Origin: Fabrea salina
Lineage: Eukaryota; Ciliophora; Heterotrichea; Heterotrichida; Fabreidae
DNA: 64,000 nt
Direction: 5' to 3'
Assembly: GCA_022984795.1 (NCBI GenBank)
Contig: JALIHJ010000040.1
Span: 124,001-188,000 of the forward strand
A program made the position numbers and the translations under genes. The notes below the pieces were generated by a model, which ran no database searches, was not told the DNA's origin, and saw only the letters and a list, made by a program, of their open reading frames with translations. This document shows, piece after piece, positions 33,715 through 63,619 of the stretch (its first letter is position 1; each line of letters opens with the position of its first letter).

Positions 33715-35766
33715 ATGAATTCAAGTAGCGAAGAAGAAAGACCGCCTCCAGTAGCTTCAATTTCAAAACCAACTACAGACGTAGAACAACTCTTAGGAGT
33801 AGCTAACCAACACTTCATATTCCAAGAGTTCGACAAAGCCGTAGAAATACTTCACGAAGTAATCAGAAAAGCCCCTGGCCTGCCTGACCCCTACCACGTG
33901 CTAGGACTCATCCACGACGAAAAAAAAGAACACGAAAAAGCAGTCAACTTTTACTTCTTAGCTGCCCAAATTACCCAGCATGACGCTGACCTCTGGGCAA
34001 AAGTAGCTAACCTTCACAAAGAACTAGGCCACCTCAAAGACGCAGTGTATTGTTTTTCAAGAGCTTTACTTAACAAAAAGCAACCTGACTTAGAACTTAT
34101 GAAAGAAAAGTAAGTTTTACTTAGGGCTGTCTGTTACGAACTCTTAGAAGAGTACAAAAAAGCTGGAAAAACTTATCTTAAAATTCTAAAGTGCTCAGAA
34201 GAGTGCGACCCTGCAATTGCCAAAGCTTTAGTGGAAGTTTACAACATTTTAGAAAACCCACAAAAAGCCATCAAGGACCTGCAAAGCATTATTCACGAGA
34301 AGTTTGACGAAAACTTAGTTAACTTAGTGTGTGACTTGTACATTCAGTTAAAACAGTTCCAAGCTTGCATAGAGTTTTTGGAGTCGCTGGGACAACAGGA
34401 GTTTGCTGTTGACATTGAAACTAAAAGAGGAGTGTGCTTTGCGAAAGTAGGAAGACTTCAAGAAGCTGAAGAGAGTTTTGACAAACTCTACCAACAAAGA
34501 GTTAACTACTACGATGACCTGTATTGGCTAGTGGGGTGTCTTTACCAGGAGCTAGAGTACCCTGAACAAGCTCTTAGGTTTTTGGAGGGCCTTAGAGTAC
34601 TAGATCACAGAGACAAACCCACTCTTTGGATTAAGTGCGGACAACTTTACTTACAAGTAACACACACTTAGATTGCTGACTACGTTTCAGCGGAAGAAGC
34701 CTTAAACGCAGTACTAGAAAGTGACTTTTCTGAGTTGCACACTGAAGCCAGAGTGTTGCTTTCTAAGCTTTACAAAGCCCAAGGAGACCTGCAAAAGTCC
34801 ATTCAAGTACTGAGAAACAACGGCTCTTACGGGTGTTTTGCTGAATTCAAAGAAGAAGCCATTGACGTGTTTGAAGAGTCTGCTAGACTTAAACTTGAAG
34901 AGTCACTGATCCAAATTGAAATTCCACAAACTCTAGAATTCGCAAACCAAATCATAGAACTAGAGCACAAACTCAGCATTGCTAACAAGCCTTCAATAAT
35001 CGTTAGTTTGGGCAAAGACAGAGTAGAAATGCTTTTTGAACAGCTCAAAGAAGTCCTAGTTGAAAAAAACATGCTTGGAGACTGTAAAGACTTTCTATCA
35101 AACATACTTAAACTCTCAGTGTTCAGTGAAACTGATAAAAGAATCAAGCTCAAAAAAGAACTCACTAAAGTCAGCATTAAAGACCAAGACTACCAACAAG
35201 CCATTAACTCCTACAAGTACATTTGTGAAAAAGAAAACTCTCAGGAAAACTGGAGTGTGCTTTCATGCTTACTTCAAAAATGCCCACAAGCCCAAATTCG
35301 TCCTTGGCTCAACAAACTCTGCAACAAGTTCGTTAACCACGAAAGAGTTTCTTTGCTGCTGGCAAATAACTACTTACAGAACGGTTACTACTCACTTGCA
35401 ATCAAGCACTACACTTCTATTTACCCACAGAACGCAACAGACCCATTGTTGAACCTTAACTTAGGTTTGTCTTACTTGTTTTCTTTGTCTTCTCGCAACT
35501 TGACTAAGAAAGAAGAGTATTTTTTACTTGCTTTTGAGCATATTAAAACTTATGTTAGGTTCCGCAAAAAGACTCACTATGCAGAGGCTTACTTTAACTT
35601 AGCTAGGGCTTATCAACACATTAAGTTCCTCAGTAAAGCTGCACACTACTATGAAAAACTTCTTAGGACTTACTTGTCTTTGAGTGTTAAGTCTTCTAGT
35701 TATTCCAAGTATGCAACTAAAGCTGCGCATAATCTTTACTTAATCACTAATGAGTTATGGATTTGA
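33715..35766 (+). CDS. GTF3C3: TFIIIC TPR subunit (GTF3C3/Tfc4-like), three exons
   Basis: CDS join(33715..34109,34125..34656,34672..35766), 673 aa. Two 15-nt introns removed. The protein is a chain of TPRs: VEQLLGVANQHFIFQEFDKAVEILHEVIRKAP, DADLWAKVANLHKELGHLKDAVYCFSRAL, a central gap, and a C-terminal set ending YFNLARAYQHIKFLSKAAHYYEKLL...AAHNLYLI. Order and C-terminus match GTF3C3/Tfc4, which recruits TFIIIB to Pol III genes. It ends with TGA, and its last 12 bases overlap the convergent Lys-repeat gene. Confidence 0.82.
34110..34124 (+). other. 15-nt intron 1 of GTF3C3 (phase 2)
   Basis: GTAAGTTTTACTTAG, A at position 10; identical in sequence to intron 2 of the tetraspanin gene at 45957. 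Confidence 0.93.
34657..34671 (+). other. 15-nt intron 2 of GTF3C3 (phase 0)
   Basis: GTAACACACACTTAG, A at position 10. Removal joins GQLYLQ to IADYVSAEEALNAVL. Confidence 0.92.
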
Positions 35767-36507
35767 GTTTGTTTGCTCACTACCTTGGTCTGCTTCTTGT
35801 AGTGGTTGCGTTTCAGGTTTTGTTCCAGGTTCTGACTGAATTGGAATTTCAGGTTCTACGATAGTTTCAATTCCTGGTCCAGATCTTCCTTGTTCTGGTT
35901 CTTGTTGAGGTTCTAGTTGGAGTTCTTTTTCAACCTCAGGCTTAGTAACAGGTCCATCCTGTATTAAAGGTTCTGGCTCAATCTGAGTTTCTACTGAAGC
36001 CTTTTTTCCATGCTTCTTATTTTTTTTGTGCTTTTTCTTCTTATCCTTCTTCTTATTCTTCTTCTTATCCTTCTTCTTGTCCTTCTTCTTGTCCTTCTTC
36101 TTGTCCTTCTTCTTATCCTTCTTCTTCTTGGCTTTTTCTATTGTTTGGGTTAAAATGCCTACAAGCTCAGTGACACTTTGGTTCATTTCATTAAGTCCAA
36201 CAGTAAGGGTTTTATTGAGTTCGTTAATTTGTTCTTTATTGTCCTCTCTGATCTTGTTAAGTTCAGACTCAAGACGCTCCCTTAAGTCTTCTTCAGTTTG
36301 CTTATATAAAGAATGGAACACAAAACCACTGGCACCAATTCCTAAACCAAGCAAAGAAAACAATGTTCCTTTAGAAACTCTGGAAGCAACTTGTTTTTCT
36401 AAGTGATCGATTCTTTGGTGCAGGTTAGGTTGCTCAGAAAACCTTCTAGAAACAAGGTTTAGTTTTTTCTTGCCTAGCTTTACTGAGTTCTTAACTAGAG
36501 TGTGCAT
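35755..36507 (-). CDS. Single-TM protein with Lys-Asp-Lys repeat, probably mitochondrial
   Basis: 250 aa. Basic presequence-like N-terminus (MHTLVKNSVKLGKKKLNLVSRRF), one hydrophobic segment (GTLFSLLGLGIGASGFVF, residues about 47-64), a coiled coil, then about eight KKDK/KKNK units (residues 125-160) and an acidic Pro/Gln/Glu-rich tail (EPEPLIQDG, QQEPEQG). No family recognised. The opposite charges of the two tail parts could make a self-neutralising or binding region. Its end overlaps the TFIIIC gene by 12 bp on the opposite strand. Confidence 0.72.
   Translation of the reverse strand: MHTLVKNSVKLGKKKLNLVSRRFSEQPNLHQRIDHLEKQVASRVSKGTLFSLLGLGIGASGFVFHSLYKQTEEDLRERLESELNKIREDNKEQINELNKTLTVGLNEMNQSVTELVGILTQTIEKAKKKKDKKKDKKKDKKKDKKKDKKKNKKKDKKKKHKKNKKHGKKASVETQIEPEPLIQDGPVTKPEVEKELQLEPQQEPEQGRSGPGIETIVEPEIPIQSEPGTKPETQPLQEADQGSEQTNSNP
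36034..36130 (-). repeat. 12-bp coding minisatellite (Lys-Lys-Asp-Lys)
   Basis: On the plus strand CTTCTTCTTGTC/CTTCTTCTTATC is repeated about eight times in phase, encoding KKDK units of the gene at 35755-36507. Units vary between GTC and ATC, and one has ATT (Asn). Confidence 0.9.
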
Positions 36508-36517
36508 ATTGTTTTAT

Positions 36518-36991
36518 TTAGAATATAGTCCATACATTATGACTGCTGAAGTACCTTGAGTGTCTAGGCTTCAAACTAGGTGCAGTGCTTTGGATGGTTT
36601 TTTCGTTGTACACTTGAGTGGTCACAACTCCAGTTAAGTTTTTGTTAGCTTTTACTAGTTGTTTGTTAAGTTCTAAAAGTTCTTTCTTTTCTTTTCTTTC
36701 AAATAAAATTTGTTCTTTGAGTTGATTCAGAGACTTAAGTAGTTTGGCTAAAAACTCATCTGTGTTTAGAGGGTTTTTTTGGTGGGGCTTAAGAGTGGCT
36801 TCCATGAGTTGGAGGTTCTCTTCTGAAACTCTTTGAAGTTCAGCTTGGTAAAATTGGAGTTTTTGGAGAATTTGTTTGTTTTGAGAAAGCAAGAACGAAA
36901 TGAGCTCTTGTTCTCTTTGTTGGTAGTTTTCTTTAGCCTCTGTGTAACGAGATTGATAGTTTAAAAGAGTTTCAATTTTTGTTTTTTCCAT
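36518..36991 (-). CDS. Small coiled-coil protein, unknown
   Basis: 157 aa. Nearly all coiled coil: NYQSRYTEAKENYQQREQEL, LLSQNKQILQKLQFYQAELQRVSEENLQLME, LLKSLNQLKEQILFERKEKKELLELNKQL; the end is polar (SLKPRHSRYFSSHNVWTIF). Separated by 10 bp from the Lys-repeat gene on the same strand. No function can be given. Confidence 0.7.
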   Translation of the reverse strand: MEKTKIETLLNYQSRYTEAKENYQQREQELISFLLSQNKQILQKLQFYQAELQRVSEENLQLMEATLKPHQKNPLNTDEFLAKLLKSLNQLKEQILFERKEKKELLELNKQLVKANKNLTGVVTTQVYNEKTIQSTAPSLKPRHSRYFSSHNVWTIF

Positions 36992-37138
36992 TATTTAGAT
37001 TTAATTTAAAACTGGGGATACGCGATATTTATCCCGAGTGCACCCTTACCTCTCGTAGAAATGTTATCTGGTATGGAAATATAACCTTGGAAAAGTAAAG
37101 GATGGTTTGAATTAGACTCAACAAAGGAACTTTTGAAA

Positions 37139-37414
37139 ATGCCTAGTTCTATTGACTGGAAAATTTTAACCCAGTGACTATTGGTTTATTCCATCCTTAC
37201 AGTACTGCTTTACTCCTCTCAATACGACTTCCTTGGCACCCTAACTGGAATGCAAAAAATGTTTTCAAAAGAGATGAACTTGCAGGTTTATGTTCAGTCT
37301 TACGAAAAGTTAGCATTTCTTTTGTTCCTGGATACACCGGTCTTCTGCAGCTACAATAAGCCCGCTTACACCAAAGACATGATTTACAAGTTTATCAAAT
37401 CAGAGCCCTTTTAA
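37139..37414 (+). pseudogene. Small open frame with one in-frame TGA
   Basis: ATG at 37139 gives MPSSIDWKILTQ, then TGA at 37175-37177, then 78 open codons to TAA (LLVYSILTVLLYSSQYDFL...KFIKSEPF) with a hydrophobic start and a protein-like composition. No 15- or 16-nt GT-AG intron removes the TGA. It may be a decayed gene, a read-through gene or, least likely, a Sec codon; the context is not redox-like. The frame is also open for about 50 nt upstream of the ATG. It stops 27 bp before the histidine kinase. Confidence 0.35.
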
Positions 37415-37441
37415 CTAAGTGTCTTAAACGACTAAATAAAG

Positions 37442-39550
37442 ATGAAAAAAGAGTACTGGAAAAAAAGTGTTCTAGAAGCCTATGACTGCACTAGGTTATC
37501 ACTGAAGGCTCCTATGATTCTTATTCTTGCACACCAATTATACTCAGTAATTTCTTGCGAACAAGTCAGCGTTTCTGACGTATTGATTACTGCTAGTCGC
37601 TTAGGCTTAGTGGGATTAATTCTATTACAGACTTTGATTGACATTAAGTCCGCAAGAGTCAAAGCGCTTTGGACCTTCATCGTAATTGAAATCTTTAACT
37701 TAACTGAGTTAGCTGAGTCAATCATACAGAAGAATTTTGACGAACCGTTGTTTCTGATGACAATTACTTTTTACACTATTTGCCTGCAGAGTTCGCTCGT
37801 AGACTCCAGACTTTGGTTTTGGTGCATAATTGGAAAGCAGTACCTGCAGTTTTGCAGTTTTGAGTATTTACTCAATAAAAGCATCCTCAAGAACCTTAGT
37901 TTGGTTCTTGCACTAAGCCTTGGAGTTGCTTATTACAATCGGACTAAGAAAAACAACTACTTTAAACTCCAAACATCCTACATAAACCTTAAGAAGCAAT
38001 ACAAAAAGGACAATTTTCAAAAACTTCCTTTTATTCTGATTGCTTTCAATAGACATCTAGAGTTTAAGTCTGCTTCTGAGTTTACCTATTCAGAACTTGC
38101 CTGCACAGAACACAACTTGATAGAAACCTTGTCAAGTGTGTTACTTAAAGTTGATCACCAAAACACCACTAAGTCTTTAATTGAGGCCATTAAAGAACAA
38201 ACCCAATTAAGCGGAGACCTAGATGCCGAACTAGGAGTCTCAAAAGCCGTCACCAAAAGCTACAACTGGAAACTCAAAAGTGACCAAAAAAGAATTTACT
38301 TACTAGCAACTGAAGTGACACAAGCTCTAGACTGCCAAGCCAGGATTTCTTCCGACAATTGCAAAGCTAAGATTCTGAATTGCGTTTCACACGAACTCCG
38401 CACACCCACTAATGGCATCACTATGCTGATTGAACAGTTAATTGAAAGTGAGTTTTCAGAAGTAAGGGAAAAGTGCTTAGAAAAGCTTTGGATGTTGCGG
38501 GTTTCTTCTAAGATTCTGAATTACATAGTGAACGACATAGTTGACTACTGCCAGTTTATGTCTGGTTCTTTTGCTCTGAAAAAGGAAGAGTTCCCGCTGA
38601 AAGTCACCATTCAGGAGGTGGTGAAGACTATCCAAATCCAAGCTAAACAGAAAGGAATTAGAATCAGACTTAGGTATGATTCTTTGCTACCTGAAGTTGC
38701 CTATACTGATTCAATGAGACTGAGTCAAGTTCTAGAAAACTTACTTAAAAACTCCTTGAAGTACACAAACATAGGCACTATAGAACTTTGTGCGGTACTT
38801 ACTGAGCTAAGCCAACTAAAGGTTTCAATCAGAGACACTGGAGTAGGCATTAACCAAGCCAAAGCTAAGCTTTTGAAAGAGCTGCTTGAAAACAACGAAG
38901 TCCAAGGCCTAAAAACCTGTGGAATAGGACTACAAGTTTCAAACCTAATTGCTCAAGAGCTGGGTGGAACCAAAATAGGGTTTACTTCTACGGAAGGAAA
39001 AGGGTCTATTTTCAGCTTCTATGTTGACATTTTCAGAGAAGTTCCAGAGACTACTCCTTCTTCAGACAATTCAGGTGAGTTTCCTGTGGAACTAAACAGT
39101 TCTATCAAGCTAAAGCACTTAAGTGTCAAAATAAACCAACCCTGCTCACAAGAAGAAACACTAGTAGTGGAAGACAACGACTTCAACCGGGTCATCATAA
39201 CTACCCTCCTCGCAAGCCACGGAATCAAATATCTGGAAGCCAAAGACGGAGTAGAAGCTGTCAAAGTTGTAAAAACTCAAGACAAAAAGGGTTCCCCAAT
39301 TAAAGTAGTACTAATGGACTGCAACATGCCTCGCATGAACGGATGGGATGCCACAAGAACAATCCATAGAATGCACGAAGAGCAAACCCTCAGTTTCCTT
39401 CCTTTTATAGTGGGCTACACTGCTTACAACTCCCAAGAAGACATTAGTCTGTGCTATGAGTGCGGTATGGTAACACACCTTATTAAACCTGCTAAAGCAG
39501 AGGAAATACTCAAGGTTGTACATAGATACCTGCACCAAGTTTCTAGGTAA
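37442..39550 (+). CDS. Hybrid sensor histidine kinase with receiver domain
   Basis: 702 aa. Residues 1-165 hold several membrane segments without a large external sensor. Then a DHp domain with NCVSHELRTPTNG (phospho-His317), an HATPase domain with N-box NLLKNSLKYTN, G1 RDTGVGI and G2 TCGIGLQVSNLIAQELGG, and a C-terminal receiver: LVVEDNDFNR, VLMDCNMPRMNGWDA (phospho-Asp626), GYTA, and the Lys motif LIKPAK. All phosphorelay residues are kept. Ciliates are known to have many such hybrid kinases. Input signal and downstream phosphotransfer partner are not in the window. Confidence 0.95.
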   Translation: MKKEYWKKSVLEAYDCTRLSLKAPMILILAHQLYSVISCEQVSVSDVLITASRLGLVGLILLQTLIDIKSARVKALWTFIVIEIFNLTELAESIIQKNFDEPLFLMTITFYTICLQSSLVDSRLWFWCIIGKQYLQFCSFEYLLNKSILKNLSLVLALSLGVAYYNRTKKNNYFKLQTSYINLKKQYKKDNFQKLPFILIAFNRHLEFKSASEFTYSELACTEHNLIETLSSVLLKVDHQNTTKSLIEAIKEQTQLSGDLDAELGVSKAVTKSYNWKLKSDQKRIYLLATEVTQALDCQARISSDNCKAKILNCVSHELRTPTNGITMLIEQLIESEFSEVREKCLEKLWMLRVSSKILNYIVNDIVDYCQFMSGSFALKKEEFPLKVTIQEVVKTIQIQAKQKGIRIRLRYDSLLPEVAYTDSMRLSQVLENLLKNSLKYTNIGTIELCAVLTELSQLKVSIRDTGVGINQAKAKLLKELLENNEVQGLKTCGIGLQVSNLIAQELGGTKIGFTSTEGKGSIFSFYVDIFREVPETTPSSDNSGEFPVELNSSIKLKHLSVKINQPCSQEETLVVEDNDFNRVIITTLLASHGIKYLEAKDGVEAVKVVKTQDKKGSPIKVVLMDCNMPRMNGWDATRTIHRMHEEQTLSFLPFIVGYTAYNSQEDISLCYECGMVTHLIKPAKAEEILKVVHRYLHQVSR

Positions 39551-39562
39551 ACTATAATAAAC

Positions 39563-40738
39563 ATGGATTCGTTTGAAGACATAATGCAAGACCCAGAGAC
39601 TGTTCATTCTTTGAAAACCGAACTAAAAGCCCACACATACTGGTCGGACTACAAGTACATTCCAGAAGACCTAATTGTAAACATTCAGTTCCTCACGTTA
39701 TCTCCGTGCCTGACTTCTTTGCAAGACGAGCTCTTCTCTAAAGTTTCTGGAGAAAGCAACTTGTACCAAGTAATAGCTGGAACTCACACTGGGAAATCTT
39801 TAGGAGTAGGGGTACTAGCTGCAACCCTTGCTTACCAGTCAAGGTTCGGCACCAGTGTGTTGTGGATCAGTGCTTCTGACTGCAGAACTTTACTTGCCAA
39901 AAGCATGTTTGGAGCGCTAATTCCCCAAATAGACCTAAGAATTGAAGCATCCCCAAAGATAGGGTTGTTTTCACTAGCTTCACAAAAAAAGAACCTATGG
40001 AACCTTGCTTGCTCCAAAAAAGAGAAAATCAAAATGATAGTTTTAGACGAGTCAGAAGAAATCATGGAAGAAGCTGAAAACAGAAAGTTCCTGGGGAGTC
40101 TTATTTTGGAAGTTGTTTTTGCACAAAGCAACCCCCAGATCTTTTTACTCTCGGAAATGAACACTGTGAACATAGGAAACTTTGTGCACGAGTTAGAACA
40201 GTTTAGCAGAGCTAAAGGAATCCAACTCAGTTCAAGTATGGTTTGTGAATACAGCGACTGCCTTAAAGAAATCCATTTGTATTATATCACGCCTAATCAG
40301 GCCTTAAACAAGATTTTGAGTTCAGACAAAGTTGAGTTCAACAAAGGAGTACTTATATACTGCAGAAACAAAGAACAAGTCAAACTAACTCTTGAAAGTG
40401 AACTGATTAGTTACAGAGAATTGGACTATGGAGAAGAAGAAACAAGTGTACTTAAGAAACTCAAAGCACTTAAAGAAGGAACTTTTAAGGCACTGGTTAC
40501 TACTTCAGAGCTTCCTAAGCAGTTCCAGAGTTTAGGAGTTGACTGTGTAATACATATGAGTCTTCCGTTGGACTCTGAGTCGAAAATCAACATTTTGGAG
40601 TTTGAACAAAGAGTTTTAAGGGTCAGTACTCCTAGTTACAAAGGAATCTCAGTAATGGTAGTAGAAAGTGGACAGTTGAACTTAGTTCACGAACTAGAAA
40701 GAGAAAGAGGAATCTCAATACAGCCATTTCCTAATTAG
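39563..40738 (+). CDS. Degenerate DEAD-box ATPase-like protein (Dbp5/DDX19-like)
   Basis: 391 aa. Two RecA-like halves in DEAD-box order. Walker A reads AGTHTGKS (residues 72-79) with Lys/Ser kept. Motif II is DESE instead of DEAD (162-165), motif III LLSEMN instead of SAT, and the HRIGRTGR motif VI is replaced by EFEQRVLRVS. The layout ALVTTSELPKQFQSLGVDCVIHMSLPLDSES and the end VVESGQLNLVHELERERGISIQPF recall Dbp5, the mRNA-export helicase. It may still bind ATP but is unlikely to be a normal helicase. Its last four bases overlap the protease gene's stop on the other strand. Confidence 0.75.
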   Translation: MDSFEDIMQDPETVHSLKTELKAHTYWSDYKYIPEDLIVNIQFLTLSPCLTSLQDELFSKVSGESNLYQVIAGTHTGKSLGVGVLAATLAYQSRFGTSVLWISASDCRTLLAKSMFGALIPQIDLRIEASPKIGLFSLASQKKNLWNLACSKKEKIKMIVLDESEEIMEEAENRKFLGSLILEVVFAQSNPQIFLLSEMNTVNIGNFVHELEQFSRAKGIQLSSSMVCEYSDCLKEIHLYYITPNQALNKILSSDKVEFNKGVLIYCRNKEQVKLTLESELISYRELDYGEEETSVLKKLKALKEGTFKALVTTSELPKQFQSLGVDCVIHMSLPLDSESKINILEFEQRVLRVSTPSYKGISVMVVESGQLNLVHELERERGISIQPFPN

Positions 40739-41988
40739 TCTAAAAGGTAAGACTTAAACTCTTGAATAGTGTTGAACTGAGTTTCTTCGAGGGACTTGAA
40801 CTTTTCGAGAGCTGCTTTCACAGTTTTGAAGGATGGGTTGTGCTTCACTGGTATTGCTGAGTTGAAACAAAGACTTCTGGGGTTAGGATATTCACTTATC
40901 AAGTCAAATATAAGCAAGTACAAGTTTTCGGTTACTTGGATCTTGAATCTGTAAATCAAGGTCCTTTCGTTTTTGAACTTTTTACTGAATTTTTTGATTA
41001 CTTCCAAACTAGCTTCTTTTTCGATGTTCAAGTAGTACTTGCAAAGAGCCTCAGTCATCAACAAGAGCTCTTGTACTTGCTCCTGGATTTCTTCGCTTGC
41101 GTCAAATATCAAAGAGTCCCTTTTTCGGTTGAGCTTGTCAAGCACGTAAAGATAGTTCTCTTCTAAGAGTCCTTTGTAGAGCTTGTAAAGGGCGTTTTGG
41201 CCTCTAACAGGAGGTCCTCCGACATAGATTCCTGCTAGTTTTTGGTTTACTAAAACAGGACTTCCTGACATTCCGTTAGTACCAGAGCAATTTATTTCTA
41301 GCAAATGGATTCCGTCGCCTTCGCTAAGAACTAAACCCTCTGACCTTACAGGGCCTTTAAACCCGTTAAAAAGGACTTCGATTGCTGTTTCAGGGCTTTC
41401 CTCTAATTCTTGAATAGCTGGGGATGAGTAGAACATGTTTTCTGGCTTTTCAGGAAACCCGTAGACTGAGCAAAGTTCTTGGTTAATGCAAGTTTCGTCG
41501 TCTATGAGCTCAAGTTCTTTGATCGGAAAAGAAAGTTCTTTTTGGGTTGAAGTTACTAAACCAAGCACTAAGTCCTGCCCTAAGACATTCTTTACTCCTT
41601 CACTTGAAATCATTGACTTGGTTCCTTCCAAAAAGTTTTTCAGAGGTATGAACTGGAAGTGCATTTTGGAGTCTACACAGAAGTTGTGGATGCTTTCCAA
41701 AACTCCAAAAGGAAGTTCGAAGATACAGTGCGCAGCTGTAAGAGCCAGGCCAGTTACCCTAAAACCTTCAACTAAAATGGTATCTTGAGCTTTGGCCACG
41801 AAAAACAAAGTGCCTCCTCCAGAAAACCTACCTATGGTAACAGAGTGATAATCTTCAAACGGAAAAGTAGAGTTAAAGTCCTGGATATGAAGAGGGCCTG
41901 GAGTGTACTTGTTCTTGAGAACAGCTATATCTCCTAAGCCTTTGATCTTCATATGCAAAGGATACCTGATTTCAGAAATGGACTCCAT
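40735..41988 (-). CDS. Trypsin-like serine protease domain protein
   Basis: 417 aa from ATG 41986-41988 (MESISEIRYPLHMKIKGLGD). Chymotrypsin-fold signs: TGLALTAAHCIF (His87), a likely Asp in LGQDLVLGLV (Asp139) and the serine motif NGMSGSPVLVNQKLAGIYVGGP (Ser241). The first 50 residues carry no signal peptide, so it is probably intracellular. A helical C-terminal third (about residues 290-417) has no known domain. Substrate unknown. Confidence 0.8.
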   Translation of the reverse strand: MESISEIRYPLHMKIKGLGDIAVLKNKYTPGPLHIQDFNSTFPFEDYHSVTIGRFSGGGTLFFVAKAQDTILVEGFRVTGLALTAAHCIFELPFGVLESIHNFCVDSKMHFQFIPLKNFLEGTKSMISSEGVKNVLGQDLVLGLVTSTQKELSFPIKELELIDDETCINQELCSVYGFPEKPENMFYSSPAIQELEESPETAIEVLFNGFKGPVRSEGLVLSEGDGIHLLEINCSGTNGMSGSPVLVNQKLAGIYVGGPPVRGQNALYKLYKGLLEENYLYVLDKLNRKRDSLIFDASEEIQEQVQELLLMTEALCKYYLNIEKEASLEVIKKFSKKFKNERTLIYRFKIQVTENLYLLIFDLISEYPNPRSLCFNSAIPVKHNPSFKTVKAALEKFKSLEETQFNTIQEFKSYLLD

Positions 41989-41992
41989 ATTA

Positions 41993-43303
41993 TTAAAACT
42001 TAAATCGACTAGGATCAAAAGGAGTAGGATTCAGTATAGGAACTTGTCCTAAAAGAATCTGAACTAACAACTCAGCACTAGAAAAAAGCATAATGGAGCC
42101 TCTAGTTCCGTGTCCAGAGTTGATATAAACGTTGTCCAACTGGGGGAATTTCCCTATTATAGGCATGTCATCACTACTTACAGGTCTGAACCCAGTCCAG
42201 TAGTTTTTAAACTCTAAGTTTTCTACTCCAGTGTTTGACTTTACCTTAGACTCCATAAGGGACTTTTTGCTTTCTTCAATTTGATTGTCTTCCAAAGTGG
42301 TGAACTCGACAAAGGCACTGTACCTCACTCCGTCCTTCAAAGGAATAAAGTACAGAGGAAACCTTCCTCCGTAGTGAATTGGCCTCTGCAAATCCAATCC
42401 GAGAATATTGCAAGATATCCCTTTCACAGGCCAAATCGGAGGCTTCCACCCTAGTTGTTTGCCTAAAGCACTTGAATGAACTCCAGCACAAATCACCCAC
42501 TTTTCAGCCTCCACAATTCTACCATCAGTTAGTTCTGCTTGGACTACAGAGTTTTGGTGTTTTTTGAAGTTTGAAATTTCAGCCCCCAAAAGGAAAACAA
42601 CACCTTCCTTTTTAGCAATATCAGCTAAAGACTTAGTTAAGTCCAAAGAGTTAGTTCCTGTAAGTGTGTCTAGCTCGTTCAAGAGACAACCTATAACTTC
42701 TCCTTTCCAGTGTTTAAGAGAAGGCTCGAAGTTAATGCATGCTTGTCTGGTGGTATAAGTTCTGACTAACTGGTTGAACCTAGAGTTCATGTAAAGACAG
42801 TACTGTTTCTGGCCTTGCAATTCAGGCTTATTAGCTGCAACATCCAAAAGGTAAGTATCCACAGTTTCGTAGTTCTTAAGTTCTTTAGGGTACTTCTTGG
42901 AGTACTCTTCCCGCAAAGTCTTGTGTAGAAGTGTGCTTCTTTCACTCATGCTAAATATAATGTCGTCTTTTTCTTTTGGGTCTTCAAACAAACAAGCATA
43001 CATGAACCTGAAACTCCACTCCCAAAACTCAAAGGAAGTTAGTGCTTTCCAAGAAACACTTCCAAAACCTTGTTTGTCCAAAAAACTACTGTATAGCCCT
43101 CCCAGAAGAAACTTAGACCTTGCCCAGGACTTGTGGTATGAGTAACCTATTAAACCCCCATTCTGGAAACTAGTTCCTTGTGCTACCTCCGGGTGCTTTT
43201 CAAGAACCAACACTTGTGAAGAAGGACTGTTGCGTTTAAGCATCAAAGCAGTAGCTACACCTACCATGCCTCCCCCTATAATTACCACTCGCTCTCCTTC
43301 CAT
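41993..43303 (-). CDS. FAD-dependent amino-acid oxidoreductase (DadA-like)
   Basis: 436 aa. N-terminal dinucleotide fold RVVIIGGGMVGVATALMLKR with the acidic residue of VLVLEKHPEVAQGTSFQNGGLIG, then ...EKWVICAGVHSSALGKQLG, and the C-terminal FAD contact YWTGFRPVSSDDMPIIGKFPQLDNVYINSGHGTRG. This is the D-amino-acid dehydrogenase/DAO family, mostly known from bacteria; substrate not certain. No obvious targeting peptide. Its start codon is only 5 bp from that of divergent RRS1. Confidence 0.9.
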   Translation of the reverse strand: MEGERVVIIGGGMVGVATALMLKRNSPSSQVLVLEKHPEVAQGTSFQNGGLIGYSYHKSWARSKFLLGGLYSSFLDKQGFGSVSWKALTSFEFWEWSFRFMYACLFEDPKEKDDIIFSMSERSTLLHKTLREEYSKKYPKELKNYETVDTYLLDVAANKPELQGQKQYCLYMNSRFNQLVRTYTTRQACINFEPSLKHWKGEVIGCLLNELDTLTGTNSLDLTKSLADIAKKEGVVFLLGAEISNFKKHQNSVVQAELTDGRIVEAEKWVICAGVHSSALGKQLGWKPPIWPVKGISCNILGLDLQRPIHYGGRFPLYFIPLKDGVRYSAFVEFTTLEDNQIEESKKSLMESKVKSNTGVENLEFKNYWTGFRPVSSDDMPIIGKFPQLDNVYINSGHGTRGSIMLFSSAELLVQILLGQVPILNPTPFDPSRFKF

Positions 43304-43308
43304 TTATA

Positions 43309-43959
43309 ATGCATTACGAAGAAAACCTTACCTTTGACCTTGGCCACTTGGCAGCTTACGACATCTCTTCCATTACTCCAGAGAGTATTGAAACCCTCAC
43401 ACAGACCAACGCACTTAAACTCCTATCTAAAATCAGAGGACTCGAAAAAGAAGAAACAGCAGAAGCAGTTTTTATAAAGGTGCCTCCTCCGATTCTGGAA
43501 CTCCCCAGAGAAAAGCCTCCTCCCGAAGAACAGCCCCTCAGCAAGTGGGAAAAGTTCAGACTCAAGAAAGGCTTAGGCAGAAGGCGCAAAAGGTCCCGTA
43601 TGGTTTACGAACCTACTGTTGACGACTGGGTGCCTAGGTGGGGTCCTTATTCAGCTAAGAAGATCCAAGAAAAACAAGAGCCAGTGCTAGAGTCCAAAAA
43701 CGGAGAAGACCCCTTTGAAAAGAAGTCGATTGAAAAGCAACAAAACAAACTCCAACAACAAAAAGCCAAACTGCAAAACGAACTTGACCAAAAAAAAGCA
43801 GTCGACAAAAAATTGAAAATTGCAAAGTCATCCACAGCTGCACTTGAAACTCCACAAAAGAAAAGAAAGATCCCCAGGAACGACTCCACTCCTGCTGAAG
43901 AAAAACAACACAACTTAGCTATTCTCTCGCAAATAAGCAAAAAGTCTAAAAATAAGTAA
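43309..43959 (+). CDS. RRS1: Ribosome biogenesis protein RRS1
   Basis: 216 aa. It has the full RRS1 pattern: LTFDLGHLAAYD, VFIKVPPPILELPREKPPPEEQPLSKWEKFRLKKGLGRRRKRSRMVYEPTVDDWVPRWGPYSAKK. A Lys/Gln-rich coiled C-terminus with basic patches follows. RRS1 recruits 5S RNP to the pre-60S particle with Rpf2 in the nucleolus. Only TTATA separates its ATG from the neighbouring reverse-strand ATG. The next gene starts one base after its stop. Confidence 0.93.
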   Translation: MHYEENLTFDLGHLAAYDISSITPESIETLTQTNALKLLSKIRGLEKEETAEAVFIKVPPPILELPREKPPPEEQPLSKWEKFRLKKGLGRRRKRSRMVYEPTVDDWVPRWGPYSAKKIQEKQEPVLESKNGEDPFEKKSIEKQQNKLQQQKAKLQNELDQKKAVDKKLKIAKSSTAALETPQKKRKIPRNDSTPAEEKQHNLAILSQISKKSKNK

Positions 43960-43960
43960 A

Positions 43961-44929
43961 ATGGGATGCGACAATGAGCCTGAGCTTAGCGTGTTTTTTG
44001 GAGTAGCTGGGGGACTTTGGAGCTTGTTCACTCTGGGCTGGATTGTAAACACTTGGATCATCAACAGACGCCACACTAAACCTATTCACAAACTCATATG
44101 CTTTGTGTTGGTGTTCCGGTCGCTATACGACATATTCCTTAGCTGCCTTTTGATCACCTGCAGTGACTCCCCTGCGGGGGCTTACTGGGCACTTGCAACT
44201 ACCACTTCTTACACTCTCTACAACACTTTTGTATTCACAACTTTTGTGCTGATTAGTAAAGGGTTCTGTGTAACCAGAGACATGCTTGACAGAAGCGAAG
44301 TAACTGTAGTGGCCATGACTATGGGTGCAGTGTACTTGGGTTTTAGCGCTTTTATGATTGAACCAACTCAGTTGGGTCTGTTGCTTGTGATTATGTTGTT
44401 TGCTTTGTTTTACTTAACGATTAAGTTTACACTTAGTAACATAAAAGCACTGCAAACCCACTTGATGAATTTGATGAACTCAAACATCCAAGCCATGCTT
44501 CCGCCAGTTTGGAAGAAACTCAAGATGCTAAGGTGGTTTTTTTACCTTGCTCAGTTCTTTTACATTCAAAAGCTGTTTATTTTGTTGGTTCTAGGACTAA
44601 TCATTCCCCTCATAGTGAGTGTTCACTGGGAGTACCGATTCACAACAAACGTGCTGGATGAAACCTGGGAAATCATAGTGCTGTTTTGGATCTTCATAGT
44701 GTTTAGGTCTAAAAACCAAGGTCAGTTCTTCAATATACACGTGATGGGAATGAACTCTCAGATTACGCCTATAGCTCCTTTTTTGCAAGCAAGACTTCCA
44801 GAGTCCTTTTCAGTGGAGCTTTCTTCTGTCAATCAAGACCGTCCTGTGATAGTGCAGCCTCCTTCTGAGTTTGACAGAGAAAATCCTTATCACCGTTTGA
44901 TGGTGGCAACTTGCATGACGTCTGAGTAA
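43961..44929 (+). CDS. Seven-transmembrane protein, GOST/lung-7TM-like
   Basis: 322 aa. Seven hydrophobic segments at about residues 12-34, 42-65, 74-101, 113-132, 138-158, 205-225 and 238-254, then a polar C-tail. The third helix end VLISKGFCVTRDMLDRSEV recalls the LLLAKGW.ITR motif of the GPR107/GPR180/TMEM87 (GOST) group, but the luminal GOLD-like domain is absent. It could be a divergent member or an unrelated 7TM protein. MGC at the N-terminus could be myristoylated, although it lies directly before a membrane segment. Confidence 0.65.
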   Translation: MGCDNEPELSVFFGVAGGLWSLFTLGWIVNTWIINRRHTKPIHKLICFVLVFRSLYDIFLSCLLITCSDSPAGAYWALATTTSYTLYNTFVFTTFVLISKGFCVTRDMLDRSEVTVVAMTMGAVYLGFSAFMIEPTQLGLLLVIMLFALFYLTIKFTLSNIKALQTHLMNLMNSNIQAMLPPVWKKLKMLRWFFYLAQFFYIQKLFILLVLGLIIPLIVSVHWEYRFTTNVLDETWEIIVLFWIFIVFRSKNQGQFFNIHVMGMNSQITPIAPFLQARLPESFSVELSSVNQDRPVIVQPPSEFDRENPYHRLMVATCMTSE

Positions 44930-44952: not shown

Positions 44953-45132
44953 ATGGAAGTCGTTAAACTTACAGGCAGTTTGCGTCAGAAAGACAAAACT
45001 CAAAGGAAAAAAGTCAGGTTCAGGGACGAGTGCTCTTTGAACTTAACTGAAGTGTACGAAGTAGAGAGTTTCAAGAGTGTAAATATTCTAGAACCCTATC
45101 AAGGGAGTTGCTTTAACTGTGTTACTTTTTAG
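44953..45132 (+). CDS. 59-residue protein with PP1-docking motif
   Basis: ATG 44953 to TAG 45132. Sequence contains KKVRFRDE, a canonical RVxF-type protein phosphatase 1 docking motif, followed by SLNLTEVYEVESFKSVN, the phi-phi-like spacing found in many PP1 regulators. The frame fills the gap between two genes on the same strand with 23 bp before and 11 bp after, and has the same A/T leader (TAATAATAATG). A small PP1 regulator is the best guess (inference from the motif). Too short for family assignment. Confidence 0.6.
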   Translation: MEVVKLTGSLRQKDKTQRKKVRFRDECSLNLTEVYEVESFKSVNILEPYQGSCFNCVTF

Positions 45133-45143: not shown

Positions 45144-46046
45144 ATGTGCCTTCCACTAACTCTAGTAAGGATAGTGGTGATAGCCTCAAACATACTAATT
45201 ACAGTAAAATATACTTAGTTTGCAGGACTTTTGATAGTTCTCCAAGGGTATTTTTTGGAGGACCACCCCATTACTGAGTTTTTAGATTACTCTTTTATCG
45301 GAAAAGTCATTATAGCAACTGGGTTTGTAGTGACTTTCTATGGAATTTTAGGACTTGTAGGGACTCTTCTAAGAAGTAAACTTGCTTTGTGCTGTTATAT
45401 TCCCAAAATACTCTCAGTATCAGTTCTGTTAATGATGCTAAGTATTTCGGGACTCTACATACTGGACCAAGTGTCAGAACTCATGAAGACTGAAGAATCC
45501 TGCAGCGACTCTTACCTATTCAACGACGCCAACGACGTTTACATAGACGCAAACAAAGTTTTTTGCTCCCACTCTTGTCCTTGCTCAGCTCAGCCCGAAA
45601 AAAGCGGGTACTCCTCTGGAGAATTCGTGGAAGGGTCTGCCAGAAACATCTTTGAGTGCAACCCTTGCGAGAGTTTGGACGCCTTGATGGTGGACTTGTG
45701 CATGCAGGGCAAAACGGAGTCAAACCGCTTTACTCAGAGTTACTTTGGAAAGGACCAGCAGCAGTACTTTAAGTTTTTGGAGTGGATGGAAACAGAGTTC
45801 AGTTGTGCTGGACTATGCACAAAGGTTGAGTCTTACACTTTCAGTGATGTAAATAACGGGGATCCCGAAGGCTCTTGCAGAGAAAAACTTAAAAACTGGA
45901 TAGAAGAAACACTCATGACTTACTTTATCGTTTCAGGAATTATCAGTGTCTTTTTGGTAAGTTTTACTTAGTTCGCAAACTCCATACTGGCGTTATGCAT
46001 CATTTACAACCCAAAAGACAAGTACAAGTCCACAGATTCTTCTTAA
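45144..46046 (+). CDS. Tetraspanin-like four-TM protein, three exons
   Basis: CDS join(45144..45203,45219..45956,45972..46046), 290 aa. Two 15-nt introns removed. TM1 VRIVVIASNILITFAGLLIVL, TM2 VIIATGFVVTFYGILGLVG, TM3 ILSVSVLLMMLSISGLYIL, a large Cys-rich loop (CSHSCPC, CNPC, CAGLC), and TM4 FIVSGIISVFLFANSILALCIIY with a short cytosolic tail. This is the tetraspanin layout, although the exact CCG motif of animals is replaced by a CPC-type one. Likely surface or vesicle membrane organiser. Confidence 0.82.
45204..45218 (+). other. 15-nt intron 1 of the tetraspanin gene (phase 0)
   Basis: GTAAAATATACTTAG, A at position 10. It interrupts TM1; removal makes the helix continuous. Confidence 0.92.
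45957..45971 (+). other. 15-nt intron 2 of the tetraspanin gene (phase 0)
   Basis: GTAAGTTTTACTTAG, A at position 10, same sequence as GTF3C3 intron 1. Removal completes TM4 and the tail. Confidence 0.93.
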
Positions 46047-51550: not shown

Positions 51551-52891
51551 ATGAAGTATCTGTTAGGTCTTTTGTCTTTAGTTTTGGCAGAAAACTCAGT
51601 CACTCAACTTCAAAAAGAAAACGAGAAACTCCGCATAGCTAACTCAATACTCCACAAACAACTACTATCTTTTGCACATCTAAGCGATTTAACTTCACAC
51701 ATCACAGAAGATTACTCTTCTAACAAACAAATTCTTAACCAGCTACTTACACAACTTGCATCTGAAATCCAGCCTGAACTGCGGATTTCTCTAAGTGAAG
51801 AAGTGCTTCACTACTTAAAAGTACTTTCAGAAGACCTGAACTTACTTGGAGGAGTTGCTGAAGGCACAGAAGACTCAACCCTCCAAAAAGCCATTCAAGA
51901 GTTCGAAGACTACTTAAACAACCTAAAGCAAGCCCAAATAGACACTGAACATTCTAAAACTTTTTACGAGTTCAAAAAGTCTTTAAATGCAAAAGAACAA
52001 AGCATTAGGAACCTACAACTAGAAAACTCAAAACTAATAGGCAAACTCGACTACTCAGAAGCCACTATCCAAGACATGAAACAAAGGCTCCAAGACCTCA
52101 AAAAGACTTCAGACCAAAAAACACTTGAACTCAACAACGCGAAAACTCAACAAGAGTCCTGGATTTCCCAAATGCGAGAAAGCATCCAAAGCGAAGAACA
52201 ACTAATCAGAACCAAAGAAGCTGAAGAGTTCAAGCACATCCAAGACTCCCAAGACCAGTTCATTCTTGAACTCCAACAACAAAGTGCAGACCAAAAAGCA
52301 CTTATTGAACAACTTTCTTTAGAAAAAAACAACTTGTCAGTTAGACTGAAGTACCTAAACAACACTGTTGAAAGACTACAAAAAGAACTAGACGCAAGAA
52401 ACACTCAGCTTAGTTTTGCTCAGAAGCAGTTTGAAGAGTTCAGAAACAAAGTAGAAACTGACTCTAGCAACGAAATGGCTTTTTTACAGAACTCTGAAAC
52501 ACAAATGCGAGAAGAAATAAACTCACTCCAAAATAAAGAACTAGAACTGCTCCAGAACTTAGCTAACTGCACTCAAGACTCAGACCAACTCAGCTTTTTA
52601 AACAAACAAAAAGAAAACAAACTCAAAGAACTCAACTTGCAGCTTAAAGAAGCCCAAAGAAACATTGAACTTGCCAAAACTTCTAAAGAAGAAGAAGTCC
52701 AGAAACTCTTAACACAAATTCAAGACCTAAAACAACAAATTGAATACACACAAAAGCAACTTGATGAAGCTTTAGAAAACTTATCCACTCAAAGTAACCA
52801 GAAACCCAAGTCAAACCCACAACCAAGTAGTCCCTATCAAAACTTTCGAGAGTTTGGTGGGTTCAGAGACTACATTCCTTTAATAAGTTAA
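51551..52891 (+). CDS. Coiled-coil protein with N-terminal signal peptide
   Basis: 446 aa. MKYLLGLLSLVLAENSV is a signal peptide with a likely cut near residue 14. The rest is coiled coil from about residue 18 to 410 (SIRNLQLENSKLIGKLDYSEATIQDMKQRLQ), ending in a Ser/Pro-rich tail (PKSNPQPSSPYQNFREFGG). A secreted or luminal coiled coil is unusual; it might be a component of secretory granules or alveoli, as granule-lattice proteins in ciliates are acidic coiled coils with signal peptides (inference). Confidence 0.72.
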   Translation: MKYLLGLLSLVLAENSVTQLQKENEKLRIANSILHKQLLSFAHLSDLTSHITEDYSSNKQILNQLLTQLASEIQPELRISLSEEVLHYLKVLSEDLNLLGGVAEGTEDSTLQKAIQEFEDYLNNLKQAQIDTEHSKTFYEFKKSLNAKEQSIRNLQLENSKLIGKLDYSEATIQDMKQRLQDLKKTSDQKTLELNNAKTQQESWISQMRESIQSEEQLIRTKEAEEFKHIQDSQDQFILELQQQSADQKALIEQLSLEKNNLSVRLKYLNNTVERLQKELDARNTQLSFAQKQFEEFRNKVETDSSNEMAFLQNSETQMREEINSLQNKELELLQNLANCTQDSDQLSFLNKQKENKLKELNLQLKEAQRNIELAKTSKEEEVQKLLTQIQDLKQQIEYTQKQLDEALENLSTQSNQKPKSNPQPSSPYQNFREFGGFRDYIPLIS

Positions 52892-52893
52892 AA

Positions 52894-53281
52894 ATGGATG
52901 ACTTAGGAAGTAGTGCTGAACTATCAAGGAGTTAAGTGTTACTGTAAAGACTCTAGCCATTCTTTAGTTTACTTTGTGATTATGCGAGTGAAAGGAAGAT
53001 GGGAAGAGTATCTAGATCATGTTTCAGATTTCACTAGTTTGACAAGTACTCTTGACGACTATCTGATGCCTGCTTTAGACAAAAACCCATATGGAAGGGT
53101 GTACTGCTTCAACTGCATAATTAGCCTCACAAAGAGACTATTAAACTTCATTCATGAAAGTTTGGATTCTAAGTGTCTTTTCCAAGAGTCTGTTTGGAGA
53201 ACCACACTCAAGGATTTCTGGAACATAGCACCAATAGCTATGTTTCATCCCTGGATTAATTTAATCCTAAACCTTAATTAA
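52894..53281 (+). CDS. Small unknown protein, possible 16-nt intron
   Basis: Tentative join(52894..52912,52929..53281), 123 aa. The long frame (VKCYCKDSSHSLVYFVIMRV...) has no ATG at its start, but ATG 52894 lies in another frame and a 16-nt GT-AG segment GTGCTGAACTATCAAG with A six bases from its end would connect them. The 5' splice site is GTGC rather than GTAA, so this is weak. The protein has Cys pairs and aromatic residues (FNCIISLTKRLLNFI) and no known domain. An ATG at 52984 (MRVKGRWEEYLDHV) is an alternative start. Confidence 0.4.
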
Positions 53282-53448
53282 CTTTTAACTAAACGTGAGG
53301 CTATTAGAACTTCCATGGAAGAAGTGCGCTTGATAAGTTTCCTAGAGGGGCAAAAAGGCTCTTAAAGTTCACTAAACTATGCAAAGACCATCACCTTTAA
53401 TAACCTAAAAGCCACTAACATTTCGGAACTTATAAAAATACATTCACC
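53282..53448 (+). other. Short A/T-rich spacer
   Basis: 167 bp with no frame of use. It holds the ACTTATAAAAATACATTCACC leader of the next gene; otherwise nothing seen. Confidence 0.5.
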
Positions 53449-53979
53449 ATGGAGTCTTTTGACACAACTTACAAAAACGAGTCATACGAGGAATCCCAAT
53501 CTTATATTAATACAGCTTACTCTTTAAAGGCTTCGTTTGTGTTCCAGTCCAAAGGAAGCTTTTTAGAGTCTCAAGAAAAACTCAGCAAAAACCGAGGAAG
53601 CGAGATTACTCAGTGTTCAGACACTTACAACCTTTCGTCACAACATAGACAAGTAGGCAACTTCCACAGCAAATACCTAAAGTTCGGCCAGTGGCCTGAA
53701 ATGGACTATCAAAGGCAAAAACACTTGAAGAAATCTTACCGGAATTTAAAAAACAAGTTAAGCAAAGCTGAAAATGAAAAGCAACACCTTATTTTGCAGC
53801 CTTGTGCTAACTGTGAAGTACTCGAAGAAAAGCAACGAAACACTGAAAAGGCCTTAGCTGATGCCATGCAACTTAGCAACATTCTGCTGAAACAGGTCTA
53901 TAATTTGGATAACCAAATTAACCAGCCTCAAGAATCCAAGCACGAAGAAAACGAGTTTACTTTTTCTAAGATTGAGTGA
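53449..53979 (+). CDS. Polar protein with short coiled coil, unknown
   Basis: 176 aa ending in TGA. N-terminal half is Ser/Tyr/Gln-rich (SYEESQSYINTAYSLKASFV); residues about 80-150 are a coiled coil (RQKHLKKSYRNLKNKLSKAENEKQ; NTEKALADAMQLSNILLKQVYNLDNQI) with a Cys pair CANCEVL between the helices. No family recognised. Confidence 0.6.
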   Translation: MESFDTTYKNESYEESQSYINTAYSLKASFVFQSKGSFLESQEKLSKNRGSEITQCSDTYNLSSQHRQVGNFHSKYLKFGQWPEMDYQRQKHLKKSYRNLKNKLSKAENEKQHLILQPCANCEVLEEKQRNTEKALADAMQLSNILLKQVYNLDNQINQPQESKHEENEFTFSKIE

Positions 53980-57247: not shown

Positions 57248-57254
57248 TTTAATA

Positions 57255-61178: not shown

Positions 61179-63269
61179 ATGCAGGAACTAGCAACTAACT
61201 TTATTTCAGCTGTGAAGAACCTTAAGCATGAGGAGAACTTAGACTTGGTACTGGAAGTTTTAAAGCAGCACTTGCCAGTGCCCAAAGCCTTTATAAGCCA
61301 AGTTCTTTTGCAGTGTGCTCAAATGCAAGCACACACTACAGAAGTAACCCTTAAGTCCTTAGAAGTGCTTGAGTTTGTTTCAGAAAACTATCAAATAGAC
61401 TCCCAAGAACAACTTATCTTGCTAAATACAGTCTTCAACCTCTGTGCAACTAGGAACTCCAAAGTTAAAAAGTCTTCTTGGAAAGTATTGGAAAAGTTAC
61501 TTAGAGTTTTAAGTGAACAAACTAAAAAAGACTCCTTTCCAGGACTACTGAAACTTGTTGCTGAAGAAACTAAGCTTTTTAGAAACCAAGGAGTTGGTGC
61601 TTCAGAGGTTTCTTTTAAGCTTGCTTTGAGTTGCTTGGAAAGTTTGTGTGGCTTGCTAGTCGGCAGTAGTGCTTGGAGTAAGTATGCACTAAGCAAATCA
61701 GAGCCTTTGTTAAGCAGCATACTTAGAAACTTAGTGTGGGTTTGGGAGTCTGGAATGGAATGTAGTTTGGAGTACCTAAGAGTAGTGGAGTTTTTTTACA
61801 GGAACTTTAATGAGCCTAAAAACTTGTTAGAAATAATACTTACTGTAAGTGCCAAGCACCAAGTAAGTATAGAATTGCAAGACCAAAGACTCGAAAGTAC
61901 TATACTTGAGCTATTCAAGAAGCTGAAGTGTTTGTCTAAAGACCAAAAGGGTATTTACCTAGAGTCTATACTCAGTGGCATTGCTTCAGTAGACTTACCT
62001 TGCTTTGTGTTTTTAAACAAAGACTTTCTTCTACAAGAACTGTTTAGTATCTTAGAACTTACCCAAACACTGCCTTTTGAACCAAAAACTTTTTTAGCGT
62101 TTAGTTTCTTTGAAAACAGTTTTGAAGTTTGGACTTCTTTCAAAAAGCTAATGAAGGTGTTAGTAAACTACGAACTCCAGGATGAGTTATTGTCACTCAG
62201 TAAAACTCTAGAGTCTTTTGAAGAAATGCTTAAAGTGTCTTTGCTTTTAAGCTTCAACTGCATTGAGGTGTCTGTAAATATCCTTGAACAACTTTTATTC
62301 AGGCAAGGCAACTCGTTAATCGGCCACTGCAAGCTTGTTTACTACAACTTAATTCAAATTCAGTTTAAGCATCAAAGTATAAGTGAACTAAGCTACATAG
62401 AGGGGTTGCTGCACTCAGGAGACTACCCTTGTATTAAAGACACCCTTTCTGAACTAGTTCCCAAACACAAAACTGACTTGACTCAACTCCTCCTAAACAA
62501 ACAAAAAGTTACGACTCTAGACAGAATAGCTCACTCCATCACTAGTTACACACACTTCCAAAAACAAGACACTCACCTGTTTTTGCAAGAAGCTCTTCAC
62601 CAACTAGACCAGACTCCTAAGCACTCTTATGCTTTTAAGCTTACTTACTTAGACTTTTTTCTAAAAGTGACTCCTCACTTAAACACTCCAAAAGCCAACA
62701 TTTACAGGCACATGTTGCTAGCAATCAGACCTAACCTTTCCTCCAGAGTTTCTTCTCTTGACAACAGAAAACTAGTACTTAAGACCCTCCAAGTTTTCAA
62801 AGAAAGTATGCCTCAGATCCACAACAAAGAAATTGACTTAAACGAAAAAGGCACCTTTTCAGTTGAAGAAGAACCTAACGTAAGGATTCCTAATGCTTTG
62901 GCTTACTTAGCTTGTGAGTACTTGCCTGCTTTAGTAAGGTGCTTTAAGTGCTTGATAGAAGCCAACTGTTTAGGGATCTCAGCAGTGTGCATTGAGATTT
63001 TTAAGATACTAGCAAAACTCCAGCCTGAGTTTTGGGTCACTGAGCAAAGGTTTTACAAAAAGGTTTACCCACAAGTTAAGTTTTTCCTAACAAAAGTCCC
63101 TAGCTCACAGCATTTCCAAATTGAAATTAAAAAGAAACTTTTTGAGTTACTCCACTTAGTCGACAAAAGATGCATTGACCACACAGAGTTACTCCAAATA
63201 CTCCAAAGTTACCAGTCCCCAAAGTTAAGCTACTTGACAGGGCCTTTCTTAACTCTAAAAAATAATTAA
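61179..63269 (+). CDS. Large alpha-helical repeat protein (ARM/HEAT-like), unknown
   Basis: 696 aa from ATG 61179 (MQELATNFISAVKNLKHEENLDLVLEVLKQHLPVPKAF); an upstream in-frame ATG would run into the divergent LRR-kinase. The protein is Leu-rich and helical throughout, with helix pairs that look like ARM/HEAT repeats but no clear signature. The last base of its TAA stop is the first base of the next gene's ATG (TAATG). Family not identified; a nuclear/trafficking scaffold is only a guess. Confidence 0.7.
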   Translation: MQELATNFISAVKNLKHEENLDLVLEVLKQHLPVPKAFISQVLLQCAQMQAHTTEVTLKSLEVLEFVSENYQIDSQEQLILLNTVFNLCATRNSKVKKSSWKVLEKLLRVLSEQTKKDSFPGLLKLVAEETKLFRNQGVGASEVSFKLALSCLESLCGLLVGSSAWSKYALSKSEPLLSSILRNLVWVWESGMECSLEYLRVVEFFYRNFNEPKNLLEIILTVSAKHQVSIELQDQRLESTILELFKKLKCLSKDQKGIYLESILSGIASVDLPCFVFLNKDFLLQELFSILELTQTLPFEPKTFLAFSFFENSFEVWTSFKKLMKVLVNYELQDELLSLSKTLESFEEMLKVSLLLSFNCIEVSVNILEQLLFRQGNSLIGHCKLVYYNLIQIQFKHQSISELSYIEGLLHSGDYPCIKDTLSELVPKHKTDLTQLLLNKQKVTTLDRIAHSITSYTHFQKQDTHLFLQEALHQLDQTPKHSYAFKLTYLDFFLKVTPHLNTPKANIYRHMLLAIRPNLSSRVSSLDNRKLVLKTLQVFKESMPQIHNKEIDLNEKGTFSVEEEPNVRIPNALAYLACEYLPALVRCFKCLIEANCLGISAVCIEIFKILAKLQPEFWVTEQRFYKKVYPQVKFFLTKVPSSQHFQIEIKKKLFELLHLVDKRCIDHTELLQILQSYQSPKLSYLTGPFLTLKNN

Positions 63270-63619
63270 TGGAAGCATACTACCATAAACTTTCACCAGA
63301 AGAAAAACAAATACTTAAAGACTACCAGCAAAGACTAACTGCTTCTAAAAGCTCCCCTAGGTACACCTTAAACACTCCACGTTCTCACAGAGTGTTAACT
63401 GAACCAGCTTCACCTAGAGTCTCTTTTTCAAAGCACCTTCCTTCTACAGTAGTCTCTTCAGAACCATCTTTGTACACCCAAGAAGGTCCTAACTTAAACC
63501 ACCCCCAACTTAAAACTGAACTAGTGAAACTTCTGCAACTAGCTAACAGTCACTTGCACTTGCAAACTGAACTAAACAAACAAGGAAGCAAACTACTCAG
63601 TAACTTTAACTACGCTTAG
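63269..63619 (+). CDS. Small Ser/Pro-rich protein, unknown
   Basis: 116 aa. Starts MEAYYHKLSPEEKQILKDYQQRL, a charged helix, then S/T-P-rich middle (SSPRYTLNTPRSHRVLTEPASPRVSF) with possible proline-directed phosphosites, and a helical C-terminus (LKTELVKLLQLANSHLHLQTELNKQ). Overlaps the upstream stop by one base; its end overlaps the convergent gene by 14 bp. Confidence 0.6.
   Translation: MEAYYHKLSPEEKQILKDYQQRLTASKSSPRYTLNTPRSHRVLTEPASPRVSFSKHLPSTVVSSEPSLYTQEGPNLNHPQLKTELVKLLQLANSHLHLQTELNKQGSKLLSNFNYA

Follow-up and report, generated by a model that had tools for sequence, protein, structure and literature searches.

How are two genes transcribed in opposite directions when their start codons lie 5 bp apart? 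A locus in Fabrea salina raises this question within a stretch of 64,000 nucleotides that we analysed as a whole (here, the window). On the minus strand, positions 41993..43303 hold a single-exon gene of 436 codons that encodes a DadA-like FAD-dependent oxidoreductase (PF01266), and on the plus strand positions 43309..43959 hold a single-exon gene of 216 codons for the ribosome biogenesis factor RRS1 (PF04939). The junction reads CAT (43301-43303), TTATA (43304-43308) and ATG (43309-43311), exactly the opposed start codons with a 5-bp spacer (43304..43308) described in the initial annotation. We favour, with a probability of roughly 65%, the reading that this is a near-leaderless divergent pair in a hyper-compact genome, in which one A/T element is common to both starts. 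Downstream of RRS1, a gene on the same strand (43961-44929) begins one base past the RRS1 stop codon; judged from its sequence, its product has the look of a multi-pass membrane protein, and it gave no Pfam match.

Both N-termini are backed by homology, as had been claimed. PF01266 (DAO) covers residues 5-415 of the DadA-like protein from profile position 1 (E 4.1e-40), and PF04939 (RRS1) covers residues 7-157 of RRS1 from profile position 2 (E 7.3e-34). Alignments of the DadA-like protein to solved structures begin at its residue 5 for 8w75 chain D and at residue 6 for glycine oxidase 7cyx, the latter with a weak N-terminal segment of only 4.6 bits; for sarcosine oxidase beta 3ada the alignment begins at residue 18. 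Residue 2 of RRS1 pairs with residue 27 of the solved chain 8fkp_ST, which we take to be the human RRS1 chain, and the N-terminus of the Fabrea protein is shorter than that of its best solved homologue by about 25 residues. The lack of these residues, which precede the match in the homologue, is the point that speaks for a misassigned start codon, whether because an exon went unseen, because translation begins downstream or at a non-ATG codon, or because spacer sequence was lost in the assembly. We therefore weighed this explanation against the sequence upstream of both genes, allowing GT-AG introns of 13-59 nt. For RRS1, an in-frame TAA lies at -30 (43279..43281, plus strand), there is no AG from that codon to the ATG, and no acceptor fits within the allowed range. 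In the DadA-like gene, an in-frame TAA immediately ahead of the ATG (-3 to -1; 43304..43306, minus strand) closes the frame, and no upstream exon with an intron of the local 15-nt size fits; all of the acceptors found lie past the ATG and require introns of at least 21 nt. The unseen upstream exon that the initial annotation had named as one outcome that would undo the pair is thus one for which RRS1 offers no acceptor and the DadA-like gene no intron of 15 nt. With homology from residues 5 and 7 and no fitting upstream exon, both start codons hold as far as the sequence shows. Searches for relatives on which a conservation test could be based returned none for RRS1 in viral contigs and none for the DadA-like gene in genome contigs.

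The Fabrea genome has reportedly been called extremely streamlined in the title of one paper, and in the window 58 gene models occupy 95% of the 64 kb. This count, and that of the 57 starts used below, was made after one model (41163-41988) had given way to the full ORF 40735-41988, with three further ORFs (35755-36507, 44953-45132 and 63269-63619) added by hand. Gaps above 150 bp were set aside, namely three of the 13 divergent gaps (299, 450 and 812 bp) and one of the 31 tandem gaps (557 bp). The ten resolved divergent gaps measure 5, 7, 9, 11, 17, 19, 31, 50, 51 and 52 bp, with a median of 18, and the medians are 11 for tandem gaps (30 of 31) and 7 for convergent gaps (n=13). Among resolved gaps, both divergent (P = 0.011) and tandem gaps (P = 0.033) were longer than convergent ones, and the difference between divergent and tandem gaps was not significant (P = 0.11). 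Convergent gaps shorter than divergent ones would follow if a few bases were enough for each start. The spacer between the DadA-like gene and RRS1 is the smallest of the ten, which agrees with its earlier description as the tightest case of a pattern seen across the window. Given divergent spacers of 5-52 bp, a minimum of 5 bp or less is to be expected, and an exponential fitted to the other nine gaps gave P = 0.84 for the smallest of ten being at most 5 bp. The 5-bp pair is a real feature, extreme yet ordinary for this window. With nine other resolved divergent spacers of 7-52 bp no assembly error is needed to explain it; this, the conserved domains that begin at residues 5 and 7 and the lack of a fitting acceptor for RRS1 make a misassigned start improbable.

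The second tightest divergent spacer, TTTAATA (7 bp; 57248..57254), separates a Sec5-like gene on the minus strand (start 57247) from a CFA20-domain gene on the plus strand (start 57255). The domain match of the Sec5-like protein begins at residue 207, so its N-terminus is without support, and the domain of the CFA20 protein begins at residue 11, at profile position 13. The 9-bp divergent pair at 29992/30002 had no domain support in the family scan. Among the 20 proteins or exons scanned, six had a domain that begins no later than residue 14 and close to the start of its profile (gene starts at 57255, 13168, 13221, 33664, 51010 and 6633). Neighbouring genes also meet closely in other arrangements. 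Two tandem genes share one base at 63269 (TAATG, 63267-63271) and two others abut with zero spacing at 7340/7341 (TAA then ATG, 7338-7343), which places the 3' end signals of the first gene in or before the start of the next. Convergent coding sequences overlap by 12 nt (35755-35766), 4 nt (40735-40738) and 14 nt (63606-63619). Near the 57 modelled stop codons TAGTTA was enriched (11 regions vs 2.8 expected), as were TAACT and AGTTA (18 each vs about 8 expected), and these words are a possible 3'-end signal. Three larger apparent gaps (18606-19419, 36991-37442 and 52891-53449) may hold short or intron-bearing genes, and no tRNA or Rfam matches were found in the window.

The predicted introns bear on the kind of genome to which the window belongs. 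When lengths of 12-40 nt were allowed, six of ten predicted introns were 15 nt long and the remaining four measured 13, 13, 17 and 32 nt; when only 15 or 16 nt were allowed, nine of ten were 15 nt long, and the one 16-nt intron lies in a model that was later replaced. One predicted 15-nt intron, GTAAAATATACTTAG, lies at 45204 in a gene judged from its sequence to be tetraspanin-like (45144-45971). Counts of GTA...TAG spacings in the window showed no peak at 15 nt (31, like neighbouring lengths); the commonest spacing was 25 nt (49, vs 23 to 38 for the other lengths from 12 to 29). About 95% of heterotrich introns are reported to be 15 bp long (PMC11441545), and those of 15 nt here suggest a ciliate of this group, in which untranslated regions are short. 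The window most likely derives from a macronuclear heterotrich genome. Blepharisma offers a likeness in its gene density, its introns of 15 and 16 bp and its short intergenic and untranslated regions, but it is described as reading UGA as tryptophan (PMC9942806), whereas five of the 57 modelled stops in the Fabrea window are TGA. Our gene calling assumed all three stops and yielded 40 TAA, 12 TAG and 5 TGA. TGG alone accounts for 155 tryptophans in the 15,634 codons of 44 single-exon models, an ordinary rate, and reading through the five TGA stops would add no more than 3 to 35 codons. TGA is therefore plausible as a stop, and the Blepharisma code fits poorly.

We examined the sequence before start codons in two sets, one of 57 starts from models that reward an A/T context and one of 47 starts chosen without a context rule, from which four ORF starts judged to be internal (30464, 35029, 29698 and 45432) were left out. 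Over the 57 starts, A+T rises from 59% far upstream to 72% at -12 to -10, 82% at -9 to -7, 89% at -6 to -4 and 94% at -3 to -1, with z of 6.3, 8.1 and 9.2 for the last three 3-nt bins. In the 47 context-free starts the same three bins reach 80%, 89% and 92%. The enrichment thus lies mainly in the last 10-12 nt or so before the ATG, and smaller A+T rises occur over all starts at -30 (z 3.6) and -45 (z 3.2). The signal also has word structure: at -10 to -6 there are 8 TATAA starts vs 0.2 expected, TATAAA-type words exceed column shuffles in the 47 starts, and ATAAA is present in 23 of these 47 start regions vs 13.3 in the shuffles, none of 300 of which reached 23. AGTAA was found in 8 of the 47 regions vs 2.1 expected (0 of 300 shuffles) and often sits right at upstream stop codons. 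As a general rule we rejected a TATA box at -30, which is suggestive at most: the A+T rise there is small and TATA words are scarce, with 4 TATA starts at -35 to -26 vs about 1.4 expected. A matrix of the last 12 bases told the 47 starts apart from 1264 other ATGs (leave-one-out AUC 0.917). At the divergent pair, the context of RRS1 is weak (leave-one-out rank 38 of 47, with 8.8% of other ATGs scoring as well) and that of the DadA-like gene is middling (rank 27 of 47), which is expected if one short element is shared but also limits the claim that it is.

The distribution of upstream ATGs bears on leader length. Over the 57 starts, a small test, there were none at -3 to -10, vs 3.5 expected from column composition or 4.7 from the window rate. 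From -11 outward the counts per 10-nt bin were 6, 7, 6, 4 and 7 against a window rate of 5.8; compared with column composition these outer bins are low as well (expected 9.9, 10.7, 8.2, 9.4 and 10.2), so that 3.5 is too high a yardstick. The result is also partly built in, as the choice of starts excludes in-frame upstream ATGs; out-of-frame upstream ATGs alone numbered 0 in the 47 starts vs 2.0-2.4 expected, which is not significant by itself. At the junction an out-of-frame ATG lies at -11 of the DadA-like start (43312..43314, minus strand, antisense of RRS1 codon 2) and opens an ORF of 10 codons that overlaps the true start. Under ordinary scanning, this would favour a DadA-like leader shorter than 11 nt. 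Taken together, the A/T signal and the upstream-ATG pattern suggest leaders of about 10 nt or less.

The same observations weigh on the rival explanation that transcription of each gene starts more than 15 nt inside the coding sequence of the other, which would give overlapping, mutually antisense leaders. The spacer leaves no room for a separate promoter, the small A+T rises at -30 and -45 would suit deeper starts, and the stretch next to the ATG could be a signal for translation only and would then say nothing of where transcription starts. An element at -32 of the RRS1 ATG, TATAATTA (43277..43284, plus strand), lies within the DadA-like coding sequence and is a possible TATA-type element; noticed after the fact, it is suggestive only, and an ordinary TATA distance would put the start near the ATG. 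Against deep starts stand two out-of-frame ATGs, one at -11 of the DadA-like start and one at -43 of RRS1 (43266..43268, plus strand; a 23-codon ORF overlapping the start), both with ORFs that run past the true starts, and the place of the strongest A/T signal, which over the starts as a set is the last 10-12 nt or so. We regard deep starts in both genes as unlikely. The initial annotation had held that neither gene has room for a separate promoter or leader, and that transcription must start inside the neighbour or leaders must be near zero. The first statement is true of the spacer but goes too far for the promoter, since the neighbour's coding sequence can itself carry core elements. Between the two options of the second, near-zero leaders are favoured by the A/T enrichment, by the empty interval from -3 to -10 in the 57 starts and by the ATG at -11 of the DadA-like gene; the two options overlap in part, as a leader of 6-10 nt already starts within the first codons of the neighbour.

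A further alternative is that the 5' end of one of the two mRNAs comes from elsewhere, by way of trans-splicing or of a polycistronic transcript. Polycistronic units on one strand would be in keeping with the tandem gaps of -1 to 1 nt in the window, but two divergent genes cannot lie on the same transcript. Going upstream, the first AG is 54 nt from RRS1 and 23 nt from the DadA-like gene, and over the 57 starts the median distance to an AG was 11 vs 7 at random positions, so that acceptors are not enriched. We rejected spliced-leader trans-splicing, which calls for an AG acceptor close upstream of starts that was not found here, and we consider a 5' end from elsewhere very improbable.

For the favoured near-leaderless pair, the mechanism that we propose takes as its start signal an A/T run some 10 nt long (of the TATAAA or AAATAA type) that ends at the ATG. 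The 5-bp spacer and the two start codons would provide this element for both strands: the ATG follows TATAA on the minus strand, and TATA on the plus. RNA polymerase II would most likely initiate within about 0-10 nt of each ATG, so that both mRNAs would be nearly leaderless, and further core-promoter parts, if any, would lie within the neighbour's first codons. Because the initiation complexes would overlap, the two genes would be expected to fire alternately from one shared open region. A fuller version of this model holds that the ATG-touching A/T element is both initiator and translation-start signal, that the two genes have no non-coding promoter beyond a single 5-bp copy, which the start codons complete, that opposed polymerase II complexes alternate on it, and that the remaining promoter information lies inside the neighbour's coding sequence; we offer this version tentatively and think it somewhat doubtful as a whole. 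The A/T signal could in part or whole serve translation. The spacer and the A of the RRS1 ATG form a palindrome, TTATAA (43304-43309), that reads alike on both strands. We discarded it as a special feature, as by our own estimate an A/T-only spacer of this size is palindromic about 1 time in 4 by chance. We also discarded it as proof of two-way firing, as the symmetry of the Giardia consensus is reported not to predict bidirectional starts (PMC3792122).

Starts of this kind have been described in other compact genomes. In the microsporidian Encephalitozoon cuniculi, RACE on a few genes is reported to give 5' UTRs of less than 7 nt, and a signal lies immediately ahead of the coding sequence (PMC2803860). 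The likeness lies in a very compact genome with a short signal at the coding start, and E. cuniculi is also said there to transcribe both strands; unlike this parasite and its CCC-like signal, Fabrea is a ciliate with an A/T signal seen in the sequence. In Giardia lamblia, an A/T-rich and somewhat symmetric consensus spans the transcription start, most 5' UTRs are shorter than 20 nt, and some pairs of adjacent genes start in both directions at the same nucleotide (PMC3792122). The authors suggest that much of the bidirectional activity reflects two separate starts and does not follow the symmetry of the consensus (PMC3792122). Giardia resembles Fabrea in its A/T-rich start element, but it is a diplomonad and Fabrea a ciliate. 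The concentration of signal in the last nucleotides before the ATG that marks these two systems was found in the window as well.

Among ciliates, Halteria is reported to have leaders of about 18 nt on average and a TATA-like motif about 17 bp before the transcription start (PMC7858049), and Pseudokeronopsis an A/T element that sits downstream of the transcription start and ahead of the start codon (PMC8899921). Both share with Fabrea short leaders, which we predict for it, and A/T or TATA-like motifs in the vicinity of the start codon, but their chromosomes are gene-sized and mostly carry one gene each, unlike the Fabrea window. The Pseudokeronopsis element is the nearest match in position to the ATG-touching element of Fabrea, whereas the Halteria motif lies further from the coding sequence. 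With the Halteria spacing, a TATA box that touches the ATG would place the transcription start inside the gene, which argues that the Fabrea element acts as an initiator or in translation. We found no transcription-start map for a heterotrich among the titles and abstract openings of the open-licence literature.

Near-leaderless starts and A/T initiators are already known elsewhere, and the Fabrea pair would be a further case, probably in a free-living ciliate. If capped ends confirm it, the window would provide a group of divergent promoters whose non-coding DNA amounts to 5-52 bp, in a eukaryote that is probably free-living and not a parasite. Two questions could then be put to direct test: the minimum of non-coding DNA with which RNA polymerase II can work, and the way in which a single site serves two opposed initiation complexes. 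For annotation, the A/T element could help to call start codons.
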